This document shows, piece after piece, positions 3,788-16,440 of a stretch of 40,388 nucleotides of DNA. The first letter of the stretch is position 1, and each line of letters starts with the position of its first letter. The notes beneath the pieces were generated by a model. That model saw only the letters and a program-made list of their open reading frames with translations. It was not told the DNA's origin and did not search any database. The stretch is from Microbacteriaceae bacterium (GTDB lineage Bacteria; Actinomycetota; Actinomycetes; Actinomycetales; Microbacteriaceae), in assembly GCA_027490915.1 (NCBI GenBank), contig JAIXXG010000012.1:1-40388 (forward strand). The letters are read 5' to 3'. The translations under genes and the position numbers were made by a program.

Positions 3788-4271
3788 CGGTGTAGGTCGC
3801 GACGTCGACGATCGTGACCTCGATCGTCTTGCCGTTGGGGGCGACGTACGACACGGTGTCGCCGACCTTCGCGCCCAGGATCGCCTGCCCGAGCGGGCTC
3901 GCCTCGCTGTAGACGTCGATGTCGGAGGCGTCGCCTACGATCTCGCGGTTGCCGAGCAGAAACCGCTCGTCGTCGCCGAGGATCGTCGCGGTGACCACCG
4001 TGCCCGGCTCGACGACGCCGTGCGCGGTCGGCGGCTCGCCGACGACGGCCGTGCGCAGCAGCTCGGTGAGGGTGCGGATGCGCGCCTCGATCTTGCCCTG
4101 CTCGTCTTTCGCGGCGTGGTACCCGCCGTTCTCCTTGAGATCGCCCTCCTCGCGCGCGGCCTCGATGCGCTTGGCGATCTCGGTGCGGCCCGTCGTCGAG
4201 AGGTGCTCGAGCTCGGCGGCGAGACGATCGTGCGCCTCCTGCGTGAGCCACTGGGTGCTCGCGTCGTTCAT
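3783..4271 (-). CDS. greA: Transcription elongation factor GreA
   Basis: GreA enters the secondary channel of stalled RNA polymerase and stimulates cleavage of backtracked RNA. The 162 residues match the usual length. The N-terminal coiled-coil hairpin contains KRIEAAREEGDLKENGGYHA (about 34-53), with the acidic tip D-L-K-E-N that positions the catalytic metal. The C-terminal FKBP-like half ends with SPLGQAILGAKVGDTVSY. The ATG at 4271 is preceded by GAGAGGAGAGACC, a good ribosome-binding site. It is followed on the same strand by nothing; its stop lies in the 31-bp repeat shared with ilvA. In mycobacteria the neighbouring gene is also a DUF4307-type protein, as here. Confidence 0.95.
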   Translation of the reverse strand: MNDASTQWLTQEAHDRLAAELEHLSTTGRTEIAKRIEAAREEGDLKENGGYHAAKDEQGKIEARIRTLTELLRTAVVGEPPTAHGVVEPGTVVTATILGDDERFLLGNREIVGDASDIDVYSEASPLGQAILGAKVGDTVSYVAPNGKTIEVTIVDVATYTG

Positions 4272-4310
4272 GGTCTCTCCTCTCGCAGAGTCGTCTCTCC
4301 GACACAGCAG

Positions 4311-4330
4311 AACCGGCCCGCAGGCCGGTT
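4311..4330 (-). terminator. Hairpin between the DUF4307 gene and greA
   Basis: AACCGGCC-CGCA-GGCCGGTT is a perfect 8-bp stem with a 4-base loop. It lies 22 bases beyond the stop of the DUF4307 gene, upstream of the greA start. It should end or attenuate transcription entering greA, which then needs its own promoter in the 40 bases before its ATG. Confidence 0.6.
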
Positions 4331-4352
4331 CACTCCGATGATTCCGGCGAGC

Positions 4353-4769
4353 CTACGTCAGCCAGCAACGGTACGGCAAACCGGTGACGGCGGGCTCGGC
4401 CGTGCGCAGCGTCTCGACGAAGACCCGGGTGCGCTCCGGGGATGCGGGCAGCTCGATGACCCGCCACCCCACGATGCCGAAGCTCTCGTTGAGGGCCTGC
4501 ACGGCGCAGCTCACCGACGTGCCCGGCTCGACCGACACCTCCCACCGCACCTCGATCGAGGTCTCGGTGGCGTTGGCGTAGCCCAGGTCGCGCACCTCGA
4601 GCTCGGCGTTCGTGCCCGACAGGCCGCCCCACACCACCCAGGCCGTGAACACCGCCGCGAACACGATGCCCGCGATGATCATCAGCCGGCGGGTGCGGCG
4701 CTCGGCGCCCGGTGTGCGACCGTAGCGCTCGTCGAGGCGCTGCTGCGTCGTGGTCGGCGCGCTGGTCAT
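4353..4769 (-). CDS. DUF4307 membrane-anchored protein
   Basis: A 138-residue protein with a charged N-terminus (TTTQQRLDERYGR), one transmembrane segment at about 29-48 (LMIIAGIVFAAVFTAWVVWG) and an extracytoplasmic beta-rich domain with two Cys residues (about 87 and 135). This is the DUF4307 pattern of actinobacteria (Rv1081c in M. tuberculosis, from memory), which has no assigned function. The ATG is preceded by AGGAGCCCCCGCC. It lies upstream of greA on the same strand but is separated from it by a hairpin. The topology suggests a protein exposed outside the membrane whose two cysteines may pair. Confidence 0.8.
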   Translation of the reverse strand: MTSAPTTTQQRLDERYGRTPGAERRTRRLMIIAGIVFAAVFTAWVVWGGLSGTNAELEVRDLGYANATETSIEVRWEVSVEPGTSVSCAVQALNESFGIVGWRVIELPASPERTRVFVETLRTAEPAVTGLPYRCWLT

Positions 4770-4902
4770 GGCGGGGGCTCCTGGGTTCTGGACCGCGACG
4801 GGTCGTCGTGCTCAGCGGGGGTCGATACCCTGGGGTCAGCGTAGAGCGCCCAGGTTGGGGTTCGCTCGACCCGCGCCTTCCTGAACCGAGACGGGAGCAT
4901 CC

Positions 4903-5986: not shown

Positions 5987-6047
5987 CGTGAGCCACAGCA
6001 TCCGGCCGCATCGATTGGATGCCCGCCACAAGCAATTCCGCGTCGAC

Positions 6048-6053
6048 TACCGT
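6048..6053 (+). promoter_or_regulatory. -10-like element TACCGT before uppS
   Basis: TACCGT followed by AGGCGT and a GTG at 6060 repeats the six-base spacing seen at other leaderless genes in the window. It is the main reason for choosing the 6060 start over the in-frame GTG at 5988. Confidence 0.45.
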
Positions 6054-6059
6054 AGGCGT

Positions 6060-6842
6060 GTGCGATCGTCGAGAACTCCGCGGGGTCGTGGGCCGCTCTA
6101 CCGGCTGTACATGGGGCGCCTGCGGCGGCAGCTCGCTGGGGCGGTGCACCCCCGGCACGTCGCCATGATCATCGACGGCAACCGTCGCTGGGCGCGGCAG
6201 TGGGGCGAGTCGAGCGAGCATGGCCACCGCGCCGGGGCCGTCAAGGTGCGCGAGTTCGTCACCTGGTGCGACGACGCCGGCATCGACGTCGTGACCCTCT
6301 ACCTGCTGTCGACCGACAACCTCACCGGCCGCGACTCCGCCGAGCTCGCCGCGCTGACCGGCATCATCGCCGACCTCGCCGATGAGCTCTCGGGAGTGCG
6401 CGACTGGCGGGTGCACCACGTCGGCAGCCGCGACGGGCTGCCCGACGAACTGGTCGCCGCGCTCGATCGCGCCGCCGAGGCGACCGTCGGGCATCCGGGG
6501 CTGCACATCAACCTCGCGGTGGGCTACGGCGGTCGTCGCGAGATCGCCGACGCCGTGCGCGCGATCGTGCACCACCACGCCGAGAGCGGCGGAACGCTCG
6601 ACGAGCTCGCCGAGCTCGTCACGCCCGAGAAGATCGCCGAGCACCTCTACACGGGCGGGCAGCCCGACCCCGATCTGGTGATCCGCACCTCGGGCGAGCA
6701 GCGGTTGAGCGACTTCATGCTGTGGCAGAGCGCGCACAGCGAGTTCTACTTCGTCGAGGCCCTCGGGCCCGACCTGCGCGAGGTCGACTTCCTGCGCGCC
6801 CTGCGCGACTTCTCGCGCCGCCAGCGGAGGTTCGGGCAGTGA
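6060..6842 (+). CDS. uppS: Polyprenyl (Z-isoprenyl) diphosphate synthase
   Basis: This cis-prenyltransferase adds isopentenyl diphosphate units to an allylic primer to make the lipid carrier used in cell-wall synthesis, or its short Z,E-farnesyl precursor. With the start at 6060 it has 260 residues. Catalytic Asp39 is in MIIDGNRRWAR, and the C-terminal pyrophosphate-binding motif is RTSGEQRLSDF. LYLLSTDNLTGRDSAEL resembles the short-chain Rv1086 type more than the long-chain Rv2361c type, so the product may be C15. An in-frame GTG at 5988 would add 24 residues lacking family similarity. The neighbouring divergent hemolysin III gene supports the assignment. The TGA overlaps the GTG of the next gene. 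Confidence 0.9.
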   Translation: MRSSRTPRGRGPLYRLYMGRLRRQLAGAVHPRHVAMIIDGNRRWARQWGESSEHGHRAGAVKVREFVTWCDDAGIDVVTLYLLSTDNLTGRDSAELAALTGIIADLADELSGVRDWRVHHVGSRDGLPDELVAALDRAAEATVGHPGLHINLAVGYGGRREIADAVRAIVHHHAESGGTLDELAELVTPEKIAEHLYTGGQPDPDLVIRTSGEQRLSDFMLWQSAHSEFYFVEALGPDLREVDFLRALRDFSRRQRRFGQ

Positions 6843-9560: not shown

Positions 9561-9585
9561 CGCATCCCGCCCCTGATCGCCCGCG

Positions 9586-9610
9586 CCGATCGGTCACCGT
9601 GACCGGTCGG
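9586..9610. terminator. Bidirectional terminator between phoH2 and the dab regulator
   Basis: CCGATCGGTCAC and GTGACCGGTCGG are 12-base arms with a single T/C difference (a G-U pair in RNA), separated by one base. The hairpin sits 25 bases past the phoH2 stop and 8 bases past the convergent regulator gene. A protein-binding palindrome is an alternative reading. Confidence 0.6.
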
Positions 9611-9618
9611 CGCGGCGG

Positions 9619-9900
9619 TCAGTCAGCAGGAGCGGAGACCGCGGTGAGCAGGTCGCCGATCGTGTGCGAGCGCTCAAGGGGGTGGCGCAGCGGCCGGTCG
9701 GTGACGACGCGGTAGCGGTTGCGCCGCCCGTCGCGCTCTTTCTCGAGGTACCCGCTCGCGACGAGCTCGGCGACGATGCGCTGCGTCGCGCGCTCGGTGA
9801 TGCCCACGCGCTCGGCCATGTCGCGGATGCGCAGGTCGGGGTCGTCGGCGAGGCACACGAGCACGTGCGAGTGATTGGTCAGAAAGGTCCACTCGGCCAC
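9619..9900 (-). CDS. Winged-helix transcriptional regulator beside the dab operon
   Basis: A 93-residue DNA-binding protein with no separate ligand domain. The helix-turn-helix spans about 24-48 (RIRDMAERVGITERATQRIV), followed by the wing EKERDGRRNRYRV. The opening WTFLTNHSHVLVCLADDPD and the PLRHPLE tail recall a widespread actinobacterial family of short winged-helix proteins. The GTG start at 9900 follows TACAGT by six bases, so the mRNA is probably leaderless. It diverges from dabB across 107 bases containing an inverted repeat laid over the dabB promoter. That makes it the prime candidate for controlling the dab operon, most simply as a repressor. The signal sensed is unknown. Confidence 0.8.
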   Translation of the reverse strand: MAEWTFLTNHSHVLVCLADDPDLRIRDMAERVGITERATQRIVAELVASGYLEKERDGRRNRYRVVTDRPLRHPLERSHTIGDLLTAVSAPAD

Positions 9901-9906
9901 CCGCCC

Positions 9907-9912
9907 ACTGTA
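9907..9912 (-). promoter_or_regulatory. -10 element TACAGT for the winged-helix regulator
   Basis: On the minus strand TACAGT is followed by GGGCGG and the GTG start, again with six-base spacing and no ribosome-binding site. It is 47 bases from the inverted repeat of the divergent dab promoter, so autoregulation is possible. Confidence 0.55.
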
Positions 9913-9956
9913 CGCCGCTGTTCGCCGGCCCCGGCGACACGAATCGGCAGAATCGC

Positions 9957-9984
9957 TTTACACGACACAAAAGACGTGTATTGT
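9957..9984 (+). promoter_or_regulatory. dab operon promoter with overlapping inverted-repeat operator
   Basis: TTTACA (9957-9962, five of six matches to TTGACA) and TATTGT (9979-9984) are separated by 16 bases, a good sigma-70-type promoter. The inverted repeat TACACG (9959-9964) / CGTGTA (9975-9980), with a 10-base spacer, overlaps both hexamers, so a bound protein would block RNA polymerase. The stretch is strikingly AT-rich for this genome. Downstream, AGGAGG at 9996-10001 is a strong ribosome-binding site for dabB. Confidence 0.7.
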
Positions 9985-10007
9985 GATGCGGGATAGGAGG
10001 TTCACCC

Positions 10008-11330
10008 ATGACCCCGCTCGACCTCAGCTGGCGGCTCGACCCCACCGCGATCCTGCTGCTCGTGCTCGTCGTCGGCATCGCCGCCGCGGTGCTGCCCTTC
10101 GCCCACCGCTCGCTGCGCGGCGACCGCCACGGCACCGGCGTCACGCTCGCCATCGCGGGCATGCTGGCGGCGACCGCCCTGCTCGTGGTCACCGGTGAGC
10201 TCTGGATGCTCGCCCTCGCCTGGAGCCTCGCCACCGCCGCGACGCTCACCGCACTGGGGCTCGGCGGCGGGCGGCGCGCCCTGCGGCGCTCCGGCCCGTG
10301 GCTCGTGCTCGGCGACGTCGTGCTGTGGCTCGCGGTGGTGCTCGCCGCCTCCGGCACGGCGGGCGAGGCCCCCGCCGTGCTGCTCGTGGTCGCGGCCGCC
10401 CTGCGCTGCGCGCTGCCGCCGGCCCACACCTGGCTCGTCGACTCGCTCTACGCTCCGACCCCGGTGAGCGCGGCCCTGCACGGCGGCATCGTCAATGGCG
10501 GCGGCATCCTGGTCATCACCCAGTTCGCGATCATCGCGGCCAGCCCGATCGCCGTGAGCCTGCTCGCCGCGCTCGGTGCCGTCGCGATCGTCGCCGGCGT
10601 GCTGGCAGCCCTCGTGCGCACCGACATCAAGGGGCGCCTGGTCGCCTCGACGATCGCCCAGATGGGCTTCATGCTGCTCGTCGCCGCTCTCGGCCTGCTC
10701 GCCGCCGCCCTGCTGCACCTCGTCGCGCACGGCTTCTACAAGAGCTCCCTGTTCCTCTCCTCCAGCGATGGCATCGACCGGCGCGCCGCAGAGCGCCGTG
10801 CCCCGCGGCCGTTCCTGACCTCGGCGACCGAGCGCCGGGTCAGGGCGGTCGCGGGGGCCCTCGTGCCGGTCGCGGCGCTGGTCGCCGTCGCCCTCATCGC
10901 CTACCCGGGCGGTCGCGGACCGGCCGAGGCGGTGCTGCTCATCGTCATCGGCGCCGCCTTCGCCGCAGCGGGTGCCCGTGCGGCCGCGCTCGCGCCGTCG
11001 CGCGCCCGCGTGGCCGCGATCCTCGCCCTGCTGGCGGTCGCCGCCGTCGCCTTCGCGGCGGTCACCTCCGCACTCACCGGACTGCTCGCTCTCACGCGCC
11101 CGGCCGACCTCGCCGCGCAGCCCGTCGCCCTGGCGCTGGCCGCTCTCGCCCTGGTGGCACTCGCCGCCATCGCCGCCGTGCGCCACTGGGCGCCCACCAG
11201 CCCGCTCGCGCTCGTGCTGCTCGCGCTCGGGCACCGGCTCGGGTCGAGCCCGGTGCGCGTCGATCGTCTCGAGCGCCCGCGTGAGGCGCGGCCGTTCCGC
11301 GCGCCGGCCGCGAGCCCGCGCACGGCGTAG
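10008..11330 (+). CDS. dabB: DabB, proton-channel subunit of a CO2/bicarbonate pump
   Basis: A 440-residue membrane protein of the Proton_antipo_M family (NuoL/MrpA-like). PTPVSAALHGGIVNGGGILV (about 154-173) and LLHLVAHGFYKSSLFLSS (about 236-253) match conserved helices of that family, including His and Lys residues of the proton path. In characterised DAB systems this subunit passes protons down the membrane potential and drives the zinc-containing DabA to convert CO2 to bicarbonate in the cytoplasm. It is shorter than NuoL (about 600) and than the DabB proteins I recall (about 550), so peripheral helices are missing. It is first in the operon, with a strong AGGAGG site, 68 bases before dabA. 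A stand-alone Mrp or Nuo subunit is unlikely because no partner genes of those complexes are present. Confidence 0.85.
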   Translation: MTPLDLSWRLDPTAILLLVLVVGIAAAVLPFAHRSLRGDRHGTGVTLAIAGMLAATALLVVTGELWMLALAWSLATAATLTALGLGGGRRALRRSGPWLVLGDVVLWLAVVLAASGTAGEAPAVLLVVAAALRCALPPAHTWLVDSLYAPTPVSAALHGGIVNGGGILVITQFAIIAASPIAVSLLAALGAVAIVAGVLAALVRTDIKGRLVASTIAQMGFMLLVAALGLLAAALLHLVAHGFYKSSLFLSSSDGIDRRAAERRAPRPFLTSATERRVRAVAGALVPVAALVAVALIAYPGGRGPAEAVLLIVIGAAFAAAGARAAALAPSRARVAAILALLAVAAVAFAAVTSALTGLLALTRPADLAAQPVALALAALALVALAAIAAVRHWAPTSPLALVLLALGHRLGSSPVRVDRLERPREARPFRAPAASPRTA

Positions 11331-11398
11331 CGCCCCCACGGCCTCGCGCGACTCCGCATCCTGACCCCCATCGCCTCGACCCCGAACGGAGCCCCGGC

Positions 11399-13804
11399 AT
11401 GACCGCAACCCCCGCCGCGCAGCGCAGCGACACCGCCCGCGCCCTCCGCGTGCGTGCCCGCGCCGACCTCGCCGCCAACGTGGTCGCCCCGTACTACGGC
11501 CTCGACGCGGCGATCGCCGTGAACCCCGTGCTGCCCTCGCTCGGCGACGGTTTCGCCGCCGCAGTGTCGAGCGCCGCGCCCGCCCTGGGCGGCCGCGGGG
11601 TGCTGACCGAGCAGCAGTTCCGCTCGCACCTCGCGGCGGGACGCATCGGCGCGGGCGAGCTCGCGGCGAGCATCCGTCGGCACCGCCCGGCGACCACGGG
11701 CGACGACGCGACGATCGTCGAGGGCTTCCTCGCCGAGCAGGTGCCCGCGACCGGCTCGGTCATCGAGGCGTCGGCTGAGCCCGACCCGATCGACGAGCTC
11801 GTGTCGAGCTGGTGCCGCGCCGCCCTCGCGCCCGAGGCAGCGTCGTGGCCGGTGCCGATCGACCAGCTCGGGTTCTTCGGGGCCTGGCGTGCGCTCGCGC
11901 TGCGCGACCCCGCTCTGCCGCGCGCCGCTCGGGCGCGCATCGCCGAGCTGCCCGAGGCGGCCGACATCGCGCTCGCGAGGGTGCTCGACCTGCTCGGCAT
12001 CGCCGACGACGCCCACCTCTCGGCGCTGCGCGCGCACCTCGCGGCCCTGCCCGGCTGGGCGGCGTACATCCGCTGGCGCTCGATGACGAGCGGCGACGTC
12101 GAGGTGCTCGACCTGCTCGCGGTGCGCCTTTGCCTGGTGTGGGCGCTCGGGGCCGAGCCGCTGCCCGCCGCGCGCCCGGTCGGGCCCACGGGCTCGGCGC
12201 TCGAGCGCGCGCTCATCTGGCAGGAGGCCTTCGAGGCCGCCCCGCACGCCGCGGTGCTCGCCCGGCTGACGCCCGGCGCGGCGCCCGCCGTCGAGCAGCC
12301 CGCCGCGCAGCTGGTGTTCTGCATCGACCCGCGCAGCGAGGGGCTGCGGCGCCACCTCGAGAAGCAGGGCCCGTACACGACGGCCGGCTTCGCCGGATTC
12401 TTCGGCATCGCCGCCGCCGTCGAGCCGCTCGCCGCCTCCGCGGCCTCGGCCGCGTGCCCGGTGCTGCTGACCCCGCGCTACCAGGTCGTCGAGCGACCCG
12501 AGCCCGGAGCCTGGCGCGCCGCCGTTCGGCTGATCGACCGCCTCGCCACCCGTCGCGCGCTGCGCTCGGCCGTGAAGGCTCCCGACGCGATCGCCGGGGC
12601 ACCCCTGGGCTGGGCCGAGGTCACCGGCTGGATGCTCGGCCCGAGCGCGATCGCCCGCAGCGTGCTGGCGGGCCGGGGCGGGCGGGCGGCGCGTCCCGAC
12701 GAGGCTTCGGCCCCGACGCTCTTCGACCTCGACTCGGCGCTGACCCCGGCCGACCAGGTCGACACCGCCGAGGTCATCCTGCGCACGATGGGACTCGTCG
12801 AGAACTTCGCTCCGGTCGTGGTGCTCGTCGGACACGGCACGACGACCACCAACAACGCCTACCGCACGGCGCTCGACTGCGGGGCGTGCGGCGGGCACCG
12901 CGGTGCCCCCAACGCGCGCATCGCGGCCGCGCTGCTCTCGTCACCGGTGGTGCGGGCCGGGCTCGCGGAGCGCGGCATCCGCATCCCCGACAGCACGATC
13001 GTCATCGCCGGCGAGCACGACACCGCCACCGACACGCTGGCCCTGTTCGGCACCGAGGCGCTGCGCATCGACCACCGTCACGCGGTCGAGAAGCTCGCGC
13101 GCGACGCCGCGGCGGCCGGCCGAGGGCTCGCAGCCGAGCGGGCCGCCGAGCTGCCGGGGGCGCAGCGTGCGGCGCGCGGCCGTTCGGGCCGTCGGGCCGC
13201 GGCCGCGGTCGCCCGCCGCGCCGGCGACTGGGCGCAGGTCTACCCCGAGTGGGGTCTCGCGCGCAACGCGGCCCTCATCATCGGCCCGCGCTCGCTGAGC
13301 GAGCAGGCCGACCTGGGTCGCCGCACGTTCCTGCACTCGTACGACGCCCGGCACGACTCGGAGGGCATCGCGCTCGAGACGATCCTCACCGCGCCGCTCG
13401 TCGTCGCCCACTGGATCAACGCGCAGTACTACTTCTCGGCCGTCGACCCCGAGGTGTTCGGGGCGGGCACGAAGACCGTGCACAACCTCGTCGGGGGAGC
13501 GGGCGTCGTCAGCGGGCCGACGGGCGACCTGCGCCTCGGTCTGCCCTGGCAGTCGATCGGCACGCGCGCAGGTCTGCACCACGAGCCGGTGCGCCTGCTC
13601 GTGGTCGTCGATGCGCCGCGCGAGAGCATCGACCGCATCATCGGCAGCGCCGAGATCGTCGCCGACCTCGTGCACGGAGAATGGGTCATCCTGGTGCGCC
13701 CCGGCGCGACACCGGGCAGCTGGGAGCGGCGCACCCGCGACGGGTGGCAGCCGTACACGCAGGAGGGCGCGCTCGGCGCCCCGATCACGGAGGAAGCAGC
13801 ATGA
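11399..13804 (+). CDS. dabA: DabA (DUF2309), zinc-containing CO2-hydrating subunit
   Basis: An 801-residue protein of family DUF2309/UPF0753, now known as DabA. The predicted active site resembles a beta-carbonic anhydrase: C308-I-D310-P-R312, then H479 in VLVGHGTTTTNNAY, then C494 in LDCGACGGHRG. The spacings (2, 2 and 15 residues) equal those I recall for C351, D353, R355, H524 and C539 of Halothiobacillus DabA2. The protein has no obvious transmembrane helices and should bind DabB at the cytoplasmic face, hydrating CO2 one way into bicarbonate. A GGAG site lies 8 bases before the ATG. Its stop overlaps the PII-like gene in ATGA, coupling the two. All catalytic residues are present, so it should be active. 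Confidence 0.93.
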   Translation: MTATPAAQRSDTARALRVRARADLAANVVAPYYGLDAAIAVNPVLPSLGDGFAAAVSSAAPALGGRGVLTEQQFRSHLAAGRIGAGELAASIRRHRPATTGDDATIVEGFLAEQVPATGSVIEASAEPDPIDELVSSWCRAALAPEAASWPVPIDQLGFFGAWRALALRDPALPRAARARIAELPEAADIALARVLDLLGIADDAHLSALRAHLAALPGWAAYIRWRSMTSGDVEVLDLLAVRLCLVWALGAEPLPAARPVGPTGSALERALIWQEAFEAAPHAAVLARLTPGAAPAVEQPAAQLVFCIDPRSEGLRRHLEKQGPYTTAGFAGFFGIAAAVEPLAASAASAACPVLLTPRYQVVERPEPGAWRAAVRLIDRLATRRALRSAVKAPDAIAGAPLGWAEVTGWMLGPSAIARSVLAGRGGRAARPDEASAPTLFDLDSALTPADQVDTAEVILRTMGLVENFAPVVVLVGHGTTTTNNAYRTALDCGACGGHRGAPNARIAAALLSSPVVRAGLAERGIRIPDSTIVIAGEHDTATDTLALFGTEALRIDHRHAVEKLARDAAAAGRGLAAERAAELPGAQRAARGRSGRRAAAAVARRAGDWAQVYPEWGLARNAALIIGPRSLSEQADLGRRTFLHSYDARHDSEGIALETILTAPLVVAHWINAQYYFSAVDPEVFGAGTKTVHNLVGGAGVVSGPTGDLRLGLPWQSIGTRAGLHHEPVRLLVVVDAPRESIDRIIGSAEIVADLVHGEWVILVRPGATPGSWERRTRDGWQPYTQEGALGAPITEEAA

Positions 13805-14124
13805 GCCGCGAATCGCTCACCCGCATGACCAAGATCGAGGTCGTCGCCCGCACGGTCGACGCCGACGCGGTGCGACGCCAGATCGTCGCCGCCGGGGCGA
13901 CCGGCTACACGAGCCTGCCCGCCGTCACCGGCCTCGGGCACCACGGCGCGCACGAGGGCCGGCAGCTGTTCAACGACCGCGACGCCCTGACGCTCACCAT
14001 CACCGTCGTTCCCGACGACCGCGCCGACGACCTCATCGAGGGTCTGCGCGCGCTGCTGGAGGGCACCGCGGGCGTCATGTTCGTCTCCGACACCTACGTG
14101 AGCCGGCCGCACTACTTCCGGTGA
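13801..14124 (+). CDS. PII-like signalling protein of the dab operon
   Basis: A 107-residue protein with the ferredoxin-like beta-alpha-beta pattern of the PII superfamily. MTKIEVVARTVDADAVRRQI is strand 1 and helix 1, ATGYTSLPAVTGLGHHG leads into a T-loop-like segment, and TLTITVVPDDRADDLIEGL is strand 3 and helix 2. It lacks the classic GlnB signatures, including the uridylylated T-loop Tyr context. Similar proteins beside carbon-uptake genes, such as SbtB and the CPII type, bind adenine nucleotides or bicarbonate. The ATG overlaps the dabA stop, so it is made with DabA and probably adjusts the pump to energy or carbon state. An internal ATG eight codons in (residue 9) is a possible alternative start. 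Confidence 0.82.
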   Translation: MSRESLTRMTKIEVVARTVDADAVRRQIVAAGATGYTSLPAVTGLGHHGAHEGRQLFNDRDALTLTITVVPDDRADDLIEGLRALLEGTAGVMFVSDTYVSRPHYFR

Positions 14125-14130
14125 CGGATG

Positions 14131-14172
14131 CCGCGGGGCGCACGGTGCCGCACCGGCACCGCCGCCCCGCGG
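14131..14172 (+). terminator. Strong hairpin ending the dab operon
   Basis: A 10-bp outer stem CCGCGGGGCG (14131-14140) / CGCCCCGCGG (14163-14172) encloses a 6-bp inner stem GGTGCC-GCACC-GGCACC (14144-14160). It begins 6 bases after the stop of the PII-like gene. No U-tract follows, as is common in actinobacteria. It may also stop transcription coming from fumC on the other strand. Confidence 0.7.
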
Positions 14173-14307: not shown

Positions 14308-15705
14308 CTACAGCCCCGGCGCGGTCATCTTCAGCACGTCGAGCGCGCTGTCGAGCTGCTCGAGCGTGACCTCGCCGCGCTCGACGAAGCCGAGGTCGAT
14401 GACGGCCTCGCGGATGGTCAGGCCCTTCGCCACCGAGTGCTTGGCGATCTTCGCCGCGGCCTCGTAGCCGATGACGCGGTTGAGCGGCGTGACGATCGAG
14501 GGCGAGCTCTCGGCGAGCGCGCGAGCACGCTCGAGGTTGGCCTCGAGGCCGACGACGGTCTTGTCGGCGAGCACGCGCGTCGAGTTGGCGAGCAGGCGGA
14601 TCGACTCGAGCAGCGAGGTGCCCATGACGGGGATCGCCACGTTGAGCTCGAACGAGCCGGAGGCGCCGGCCCACGCCACGGTCGCGTCGTTGCCGATGAC
14701 CCGGGCGCAGACCATGAGCACGGCCTCCGGAACCACGGGGTTGACCTTGCCGGGCATGATCGACGAGCCCGGCTGCAGATCGGGGATGTGCAGCTCGGCG
14801 AGGCCGGTGTTCGGGCCCGAGCCCATCCAGCGGATGTCGTTGCAGATCTTCGTCAGCGACACGGCGAGCACGCGCAGCGCGCCCGAGGCCTCGACGAGAC
14901 CGTCGCGCGCGCCCTGCGCCTCGAAGTGGTCGAGCGCCTCGGTGATCGGCAGGCCGGTGGTCGCGGCGAGCTCGGCGATGACCTTCTGCGAGAAGCCGAG
15001 CGGGGTGTTGATGCCCGTGCCCGTGGCGGTGCCGCCGAGCGGCACCTCGGCGACGCGCTCGATCGTGGCCTGCACGCGGGCGATGCCGAGGCGGATCTGC
15101 CGCGCGTAGCCGGCGAACTCCTGCCCGAGCGTGACGGGGGTGGCGTCCATGAGGTGGGTGCGGCCGGCCTTGACCGCCGTCTTCCACAGCGCGGCCTTCT
15201 CCTCCAGCGCGCCGGCGAGGTGCTCGAGCGCAGGGATGAGGTCGTGCAGCAGCGCGGCCGTCACCGCGAGGTGCACGGAGGTCGGGAAGACGTCGTTCGA
15301 CGACTGCGACGCGTTGACGTGGTCGTTGGGGTGCACCGCGAGGGAATCCGTCGAGGCGAGCGTGGCGAGCACCTCGTTCATGTTCATGTTCGACGAGGTG
15401 CCCGAGCCGGTCTGGTAGGTGTCGACCGGGAACTGGTCGTGGTGCGCGCCGCCGATGATCTGGTCGGCGGCGGCGACGATCGCCTGCGAGCGTTCGGCGT
15501 CGAGGATGCCCAGCTCGGCGTTGACGATCGCGGCGGCGCGCTTGATCTGCGCGAGGGCGACGATCTGGCCGCTCTCGAGGCCGGTGCCCGAGATGGGGAA
15601 GTTCTCGACGGCGCGCTGCGTCTGCGCCCGGTAGAGGGCGCTGCGCGGAACGCGCACCTCGCCCATGGTGTCGTGCTCGATGCGGTACTCGGTCTCGGTG
15701 CTCAC
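14308..15705 (-). CDS. fumC: Class II fumarate hydratase
   Basis: This TCA-cycle enzyme interconverts fumarate and malate without an iron-sulfur cluster. The 465 residues fit the class II length. Visible marks are [13 protein letters not shown] (about 98-110), the [14 protein letters not shown] segment near 133-146, and the superfamily signature [12 protein letters not shown] near 315. The GTG start at 15705 is preceded by AAGGA. It lies 81 bases downstream of the beta-carbonic anhydrase gene on the same strand and is probably co-transcribed with it. It converges with the dab operon, and the gap of 183 bases between them holds the dab hairpin and further inverted repeats. Confidence 0.95.
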
Positions 15706-15786: not shown

Positions 15787-16440
15787 CTAGAGCTGACCGA
15801 CGACGACATCGGGCACGACCCGGCCTTCGCGCAGCCGGTAGTTCGCACCCACGATGGCCAGCGTACCGGCAGCGACCTCGTCGCTGATGAGCTCGCTGGC
15901 GGCCAGCAGGGCTCCGACCGTGTCGCGCAGGTGCTCGCGGCCGACCTCGGCGGGGTCGAGAGGCGCCGCGTCGATGCCGTCGGCGTCCGCCTGGCCGGCG
16001 GCGAGCCGCACGCGGTCGACGGCGGGCACGATCTGGTCGACGATGCCGCGGATGTGCGCGGGCAGCGCGGGCGCCTCCGGTCCGACCGACTGGATGGCCG
16101 CGGCGACCGCTCCGCACTCGTCGTGCCCGAGCACCAGGATCAGCGGCACCTTCAGCACCGCAACCGCGTACTCGAGCGAGCCGATGACGCTGTCGCTGAT
16201 CACCTGCCCGGCGTTGCGCACGACGAAGAGGTCGCCGAGGCCCTTGTCGAAGATGATCTCGGCCGCGAGCCGCGAGTCGCTGCATCCGAAGAGGGCGGCG
16301 TGCGGGGCCTGGAAGCTGGCGAGCTCGGCCCGCCGGTCGACATCCTGGCGGGGATGCTGGGGCTCACCCGCGACGAACCGCGCGTTGCCCCGCTCCATCT
16401 CGCGCCACACCTGGGCGGGAAGGCGACGGTCGGTCGGCAT
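15787..16440 (-). CDS. Beta-class carbonic anhydrase
   Basis: A 217-residue soluble zinc enzyme that interconverts CO2 and bicarbonate. Zinc ligands Cys53 in CSDSR (53-57), His106 and Cys109 in HDECGA are all present, as is the Asp55-Arg57 dyad and the RNAG motif at 75-78. No signal peptide is seen, so it is cytoplasmic. AGGAG precedes the ATG. A -10-like TACGCT at 16478-16483 gives it its own promoter, with fumC downstream. Placed less than 2 kb from the dab operon, it offers a second, reversible route to bicarbonate, and would partly short-circuit a one-way pump if both were abundant together. Confidence 0.93.
   Translation of the reverse strand: MPTDRRLPAQVWREMERGNARFVAGEPQHPRQDVDRRAELASFQAPHAALFGCSDSRLAAEIIFDKGLGDLFVVRNAGQVISDSVIGSLEYAVAVLKVPLILVLGHDECGAVAAAIQSVGPEAPALPAHIRGIVDQIVPAVDRVRLAAGQADADGIDAAPLDPAEVGREHLRDTVGALLAASELISDEVAAGTLAIVGANYRLREGRVVPDVVVGQL

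Follow-up and report, generated by a model that had tools for sequence, protein, structure and literature searches.

A DAB-type carbon pump with a putative local switch

We analyzed 40,388 nucleotides from a Microbacteriaceae genome (NCBI GenBank assembly GCA_027490915.1, contig JAIXXG010000012.1, positions 1 to 40,388; hereafter the window) and found a four-gene cassette that encodes a DAB-type inorganic carbon pump, an assignment of the pump class that is firm from the protein sequences. The pump genes dabB and dabA are followed by a gene for a PII-like protein, and a gene for a small winged-helix protein, here named REG, diverges from dabB (Table 1). Among related genomes, REG stands beside DAB and beside the unrelated Na+/bicarbonate transporter SbtA, with the same type of target site. 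This suggests that inorganic carbon uptake is under a local switch that has not been described before. Our joint reading, which we consider likely, is that the cassette specifies a DAB pump serving heterotrophic carboxylation, locally repressed by REG and tuned by a PII protein of the CPII/SbtB-like kind. Little is understood of how heterotrophs choose when to pay for bicarbonate with an ion gradient, and a 93-amino-acid (aa) protein with one predicted 26-bp site, tied statistically to two unrelated inorganic carbon transporters, would provide a compact and testable handle. No report of REG, of its palindrome or of its sharing between DAB and SbtA was found in the open-access literature, an earlier mention being possible, and no regulator for the DAB of a heterotroph is mentioned in the accessible parts of the literature searched.

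DabA and DabB keep the functional residues of DAB2

DabA matched PF10070 with 714 bits (2.8e-214; cut-off 25) over model positions 3-747 of 747, and DabB matched PF00361 at 1.9e-24, its best match among solved chains being DabB2 from the DAB2 complex of Halothiobacillus neapolitanus (DabA2/DabB2, PDB 9rd0/9rd8/9rd9); both profile searches agree with the families proposed by a first-pass annotation of the window. The five DabA residues singled out in that annotation are present and align with DabA2, namely the Cys2His zinc ligands C308, H479 and C494 (DabA2 C351, H524 and C539) and the Asp-Arg dyad D310/R312 (D353 and R355), with the same spacing of 15 residues from His to Cys in both proteins. 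The membrane-finger glutamate of DabA2, Glu444, corresponds to E407 (motif WAEVTGW versus FVESAGL), and 15 of the 16 DabA rows of the family alignment retain its AE, the remaining row (L029) being cut before it. A pairwise alignment had placed an alanine, 6-8 residues off, opposite Glu444, and this apparent loss of the finger glutamate was rejected since the AE motif of the family alignment overrules it. The leucine that replaces the Gln/His of carbonic anhydrase (CA) is shared as well (L620, DabA2 Leu658). In DabB, residues S154, H158, K208, S214, H237, H241 and K245 correspond to the proton-path residues S256, H260, K310, S316, H339, H343 and K347 of DabB2.

The accessible part of the DAB2 study (PMC13144422) reports that activity needs the zinc ligands, the Asp-Arg dyad and the membrane-finger glutamate, that replacing Glu444 abolishes activity, that mutation of the seven DabB2 positions impairs DAB2, that Leu658 is strictly conserved yet dispensable, and that DAB2 is Na+-independent. 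The two systems also share adjacent pump genes; the window differs from DAB2 in its host, in which no RuBisCO was found, and in the addition of REG and the PII-like partner. DABs in heterotrophs are already known, for example MpsAB of Staphylococcus aureus, a DAB homologue; unlike in the window, no REG or PII-like gene is named with MpsAB in the accessible text (PMC6689103).

The DabB of this clade is short

The window DabB has 440 aa compared to 551 aa for DabB2, and its AlphaFold model (pLDDT 90.5) contains 13 membrane helices versus 15 in the DabB2 structure, which we read from the model as TM3-TM15, transmembrane helices (TM) 1-2 being gone. Relatives from the family have about 19 more residues in the loop that leads into TM7. 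Since an AGGAGG stands seven bases 5' of the dabB start and a divergent promoter lies in front of it, the short start is supported; AGGAGG also precedes dabB in the three other genus loci examined (L018, L019, L020). In a 38-row alignment the short form is common to five clade rows (L085, the window and three Microcella-named rows; the DabB of L088 carries about 25 additional, non-membrane residues) and occurs in two further rows, both from one other genome; gene starts of the relatives were chosen by script, so that some DabB rows may start late. The dN/dS of dabB was 0.18 and 0.20 in two pairs, making it unlikely that the short protein is decaying. Searching structures with the DabB model by Foldseek ranked NuoL of complex I first, with no DAB2 chain among the 50 matches listed. 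The short DabB offers a natural experiment on the helices that are indispensable to the DAB mechanism, and possibly a smaller pump for engineering.

REG is a small winged-helix protein linked to two carbon transporters

The Pfam search assigned REG to MarR_2/HTH_24 at 1.3e-08, with 35.3 bits for PF12802 (cut-off 27) and a match to PF13412. Its AlphaFold model (pLDDT 86) has the order H-H-H-E-E-H, with a short C-terminal helix (residues 81-88) after the wing, and its closest folds by Foldseek are the winged helix-turn-helix (wHTH) domains of AspA, MarR and ArsR proteins; most MarR matches cover about 60 columns with a TM-score of about 0.38 by target length. MarR proteins have about 140 aa, with long dimerisation helices around the wHTH. 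REG thus resembles MarR/ArsR repressors in its DNA-binding domain and differs from them in its length of 93 aa, which in the model leaves no MarR-type long dimerisation helices; it has no known metal or ligand site.

We searched 249 genomes of the family with a REG profile and found 39 copies in 36 genomes (E <=1e-15, a threshold set by us; at most 20 candidates were scored per genome with a profile derived from DAB-linked rows). REG was present in 31 of 35 genomes with DAB or SbtA versus 5 of 214 with neither (Fisher p 5e-30, a statistic that ignores relatedness), more specifically in 15/15 DAB genomes and 16/20 SbtA genomes. Sixteen of the 39 copies adjoin DAB, 16 adjoin SbtA (within about 1.2 kb) and seven neither. 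SbtA, searched separately, occurred in 20/249 genomes; PF05982 was confirmed for the SbtA of L100, L114 and L173, and several SbtA loci have a PII-like partner of their own. Like the window cassette, SbtA-SbtB combines a transporter with a PII-like protein, and in actinobacterial relatives the REG family and the palindrome are shared too; SbtA itself belongs to PF05982, outside the DabA and DabB families. One genus member devoid of DAB (G137) has REG-SbtA plus TerC instead (L173). Among small-genome members of the family, a compact cluster of REG, a TerC-type gene and SbtA was observed in L170, L171, L172 and L178-L181 (with PF03741 confirmed for L171); a TerC gene was found close to REG in L146 and L148 too, with no SbtA seen there.

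DabA was found in 15/249 family genomes and 23/396 genomes of the phylum, both counts including the window genome. Among 16 DAB loci in the family (15 plus the window), 14 show REG-dabB-dabA-PII in the same order and two are cut by the contig end after REG-dabB-dabA. The four-part layout, suggested by the first-pass annotation to be possibly undescribed in this lineage, is therefore real but not peculiar to this genome. One genome of the family (G066) has two DAB loci.

A wider set, the best 80 REG loci of at least 580 relatives, is biased to the DAB-linked query rows, the family counts being less biased. It contains 52 loci with dabB upstream and divergent (in five of these, L112, L127, L131, L133 and L139, dabB is about 2.6 kb from REG), one with dabB downstream in the same direction (L123), 14 with SbtA and 13 with neither; of the last, four have less than 900 bases of upstream contig sequence and another one has 1331. 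The Nocardia locus L127 has two REG-like genes (3886-4803 and 6001-6300), one of which directly adjoins dabB; a second REG-like gene thus stands between REG and the distant dabB. An Arthrobacter REG locus (L093:356-652) is followed by an SbtA-like start and then unrelated sequence, possibly a broken SbtA. In a REG tree (98 columns, 99 rows, several long branches, deep order not fixed) the labels were clustered, with 10 changes for DAB and seven for SbtA versus shuffled means of 33 and 22.

Two further ideas on the distribution were dropped. Mutual exclusion of DAB and SbtA is not supported, both occurring together in 0/249 genomes versus 1.2 expected (p 0.62), and a Cryobacterium flavum contig carries REG-SbtA as well as REG-DAB (L125, L136). 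The idea that the cassette moved over a long distance between Tessaracoccus (L157) and Microbacterium (L163) was left unused, because their 97.8% identity spans 7.5 kb including the flanks and contamination or misnaming is as likely.

A shared palindrome overlaps the only promoter-like site

The predicted REG operator covers the promoter-like site in front of dabB. No other site of this kind was found between 9560 and 14400, and 50 shuffles gave a mean of 0.0. Genome-wide, no other site matched the palindrome with at most two mismatches. An operator on top of the only promoter-like site, and unique in the genome, has the layout of a local repressor, and we infer from this arrangement that REG acts as a repressor rather than an activator. 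The regulator had been described beforehand as dedicated to the cassette, and so it looks from this single operator and from the presence of REG in every DAB genome of the family sample. A wider REG regulon was considered and rejected: there is no second operator with at most two mismatches, and places with 1-3 mismatches numbered 15 versus 12 for a reversed-pattern control.

For the comparison across loci, 67 intergenic regions were reduced to 53 non-redundant ones (41 DAB, 12 SbtA), the 14 other REG loci, including L123, being omitted. Without any prior motif, ACACG-N10-CGTGT was the top dyad with 5-letter arms (7/53 REG/pump spacers; shuffle maximum 3 in 200 sets), and several next-ranked dyads are registers of the same palindrome. 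A palindrome register was also the top 5-letter dyad in DAB loci alone (5/41, shuffle maximum 3) and in SbtA loci alone (4/12, shuffle maximum 2). Scored against the 16-letter consensus, all 12 SbtA spacers reached at least 13/16 (null 0.08%) and 18 of the 41 DAB spacers at least 12/16 (null 0.46%); as this consensus was picked after viewing the sequences, these scores are partly circular, while the motif-free dyad counts are not. Microcella pacifica (L088) and one Salinibacterium SbtA locus (L158) carry the palindrome in perfect form. It is weaker among SbtA loci outside the motif choice, where diverged palindromes are clear in G204 and G146 and less so in G137, and where, apart from two stretches at p 0.025-0.045, the others do not exceed chance.

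The PII-like protein resembles CPII

The PII-like protein matched PF00543 at 8.5e-19. Its nearest solved chains are 5d4n/5d4l (62 bits, 3.7e-16, residues 6-107), which we take to be CPII of Thiomonas, compared to 17.1 bits at most for canonical PII. CPII is reportedly carboxysome-associated and bicarbonate-regulated (by the title of Wheatley 2016), whereas the operon partner of the window protein is a DAB. The PII-like protein probably senses the state of nucleotides, and perhaps that of bicarbonate, and would in turn gate the pump as its target.

The genome context is consistent with heterotrophic use

The window genome (2.57 Mb, 99.98% complete, with Microcella relatives) gave no PF00016 match, the positive control matching in 5 of 14 genomes, so that RuBisCO, noted as absent from the window, was not found elsewhere in the genome either. 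The simplest interpretation is thus a heterotrophic use. A search for phosphoenolpyruvate carboxylase (PEPC) in this genome found none, and one pyruvate carboxylase-type match was obtained. The proposal that, at low CO2, the pump would feed anaplerotic and biosynthetic carboxylases is partly supported by these RuBisCO and pyruvate carboxylase results, with the correction that the pump is not the sole source of inorganic carbon, given a beta-CA gene 1.7 kb from the cassette. This beta-CA gene is the sole PF00484 match of the genome, a search that covered the beta class only. S. aureus genomes reportedly have no carbonic anhydrase (PMC8567241), whereas the window locus has a beta-CA nearby. In the accessible part of PMC9894237, co-expression of DAB and CA was not deleterious in Escherichia coli or Cupriavidus, and the nearby CA is thus no argument against a pump; the S. 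aureus group took the contrary view in the case of a bicarbonate transporter, as far as the accessible text goes (PMC8552792).

A model for the cassette and the points against it

In the model that we propose, REG, probably as a dimer, would occupy the palindrome covering the -35 to -10 region and keep the dab promoter shut when inorganic carbon is ample. When inorganic carbon is scarce, or when a proxy such as pH calls for uptake, REG would leave and DabB, DabA and the PII-like protein would be made. We infer the direction of transport and the ion used by the window DAB, which would be a vectorial carbonic anhydrase that turns CO2 into bicarbonate: CO2 would be hydrated by DabA at its buried zinc site, ion flow through DabB, together with the DabA membrane finger, would drive this catalysis and make hydration one-way, and the bicarbonate left in the cytoplasm would reach heterotrophic carboxylases, pyruvate carboxylase being present. 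The PII-like protein may tune the pump post-translationally, the role proposed for SbtB towards SbtA. Whether a small winged-helix family is, more generally, a common local repressor responsive to inorganic carbon in Actinomycetota, controlling DAB and SbtA through one palindrome, each pump often having a PII-like protein of its own, seems to us evenly balanced. If this is true, REG, palindrome, pump and PII-like protein together would be an exchangeable carbon-supply cassette for heterotrophs.

Several observations weigh against this model. REG is too small, at 93 aa in its model, for a separate sensor domain, which makes the signal the weakest point of the mechanism. DabB is devoid of TM1-2 and of about 19 residues before TM7, so that coupling could differ; the ion-pair residue Lys235 of DabB2 is Arg133 in the window, and Arg182 of DabB2 has no clear counterpart. 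Other neighbors flank REG at 7/39 family copies and at 13 of the best 80 loci, and REG is absent at the threshold from 4/20 SbtA genomes; no REG match was found at their SbtA loci (L186, L189, L203 and L204), two of which are contig fragments. The operator scores below 11/16 in 11 of the 41 non-redundant DAB loci. With 4-letter arms, AACA-N16 comes first in DAB loci (9/41), and in SbtA loci GATC-N0, TGAT-N7 and CGCT-N20 reach 5/12 each versus 4 for palindrome registers. Of 11 distinct SbtA stretches outside the motif choice, three have p<=0.015, two lie at 0.025-0.045, one (entered twice) gives 0.095 and 0.16, and five are above 0.1.

Alternative explanations

The same genes could specify an MpsAB-type Na+/HCO3- symporter instead of an H+-driven CO2 hydrase, with REG sensing Na+ or alkaline pH. 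The accessible parts of PMC13144422 and PMC6689103 argue that MpsAB uses sodium, REG adjoins TerC-family genes in several relatives, and the loss of TM1-2 lowers the certainty of the DabB ion path. All zinc-site residues essential in DAB2 are kept, however, the proton-path residues match those of DabB2, and DAB2 itself is Na+-independent in the accessible text (PMC13144422), and we judge the symporter quite improbable. Slightly less improbable, but still unlikely, is that REG is a regulator of pH, Mn2+ or envelope stress for which inorganic carbon genes are some targets among others. This would fit TerC (PF03741) lying beside REG or within 2.7 kb of it in L146, L148, L171 and L173, and the MFS carrier, P-type ATPase and CNNM/CorC neighbors among the 13 of the best 80 loci with no DAB or SbtA in view; on the other hand, 32/39 family copies adjoin DAB or SbtA and the window genome has one operator. 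The readings as a carbon and as a pH signal overlap in any case, since low CO2 is coupled physically to high pH.

To a similarly low degree of probability, the PII-like protein may act on REG or on carboxylases and not on the pump. Co-transcription leaves its target unnamed, and PII proteins have many partners; against this, the SbtA genes next to REG, unrelated to DAB, often have a PII-like partner too, and cyanobacterial SbtB reportedly forms a complex with SbtA (PMC8352866). We find it very hard to credit that the system is decaying, with DabB truncated, DabA evolving fast in Microcella and the locus being lost. Relative to the window, the DabA of three genus loci is 62-66% and the DabB 59-64% identical, compared to 90-93% for the neighboring fumC-like gene product and 92-93% for the PII-like protein, and DAB is missing from one of five genus genomes. 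A locus named Microbacterium (L086) has lost dabB, dabA, the PII-like gene and the operator, leaving an orphan REG (L086:5880-6010) between phoH and fumC that is 89-90% identical to the window REG. Yet there are no internal stops, the dN/dS of dabA and dabB is 0.14-0.22 in two pairs, all functional residues are kept, the short DabB is common to five clade rows and its model reaches pLDDT 90. The DAB pump under local REG repression stays our preferred reading.

Layout and neighborhood of the cassette

The four genes and two flanking hairpins described for 9619-14172 were confirmed by gene coordinates, Pfam and folding against shuffled sequences. The beta-CA gene, the single promoter-like site with its overlapping palindrome and the short DabB had been overlooked in the first-pass annotation.

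Table 1. Coordinates of the cassette and adjoining features in the window
Feature	Position	Strand	Description
GC-rich hairpin	9575..9620		convergent ends of phoH-like gene and REG
REG	9619..9900	-	winged-helix regulator of 93 aa (WTFLTNH family); dabB diverges from it
Predicted REG operator	9957..9982		TTTACACG-N10-CGTGTATT, 14/16 to consensus AATACACG-N10-CGTGTATT
dab promoter-like site	9957..9984	+	TTTACA-16-TATTGT, overlapped by the predicted operator
Shine-Dalgarno of dabB	9995..10000	+	AGGAGG, read directly in the sequence
dabB	10008..11330	+	440 aa, antiporter-like membrane subunit, PF00361
dabA	11399..13804	+	801 aa, PF10070
PII-like gene	13801..14124	+	107 aa, PF00543
GC-rich hairpin	14131..14172		3' of PII-like gene, separates dab operon from convergent fumC-like gene
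beta-CA gene	15787..16440	-	PF00484; neighbor of the cassette, not a member

The spacer between REG and dabB is 107 bp, the dabB-dabA gap is 68 bp, and the PII-like start overlaps the dabA stop through ATGA. The upstream hairpin folds at -41.4 kcal/mol (z -6.8) on the plus strand and -31.8 (z -4.0) on the minus strand, with 0/200 shuffles equal, and the downstream one has z -3.3 (+) and -4.0 (-), with 1/200 equal; no T-run of an intrinsic terminator was found at either. None of the four cassette proteins passed an NCBIfam model at its cut-off. Compared to the nearest relative, L085, dN/dS is 0.07 for REG, 0.18 for dabB, 0.14 for dabA and 0.02 for the PII-like gene, values that show purifying selection.

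The cassette lies between phoH-like and fumC-like genes in four of five sampled genus genomes and elsewhere in other genera; in both genomes checked from other genera (G076, G084), phoH and fumC stand together with no cassette. The beta-CA gene is two genes downstream, the fumC-like gene lying between, and it adjoins a fumC-like gene also at all four checked loci with no cassette (L043-L046), indicating that it belongs to the old neighborhood. The name fumC may itself have to be revisited: the lyase at 14308-15705 scored 542.4 bits, under the cut-off of 664.75 of the NCBI class II fumarase model, and 526 bits, over the cut-off of 510 of an aspartate ammonia-lyase subfamily model. Finally, a beta-CA match comes immediately after the PII-like gene in 11 of the best 80 REG loci, of which 10 have mycobacterial names, giving a five-gene layout REG-dabB-dabA-PII-beta-CA (L094, confirmed by Pfam, L095, L098, L101-L103, L118-L120, L135 and L145).

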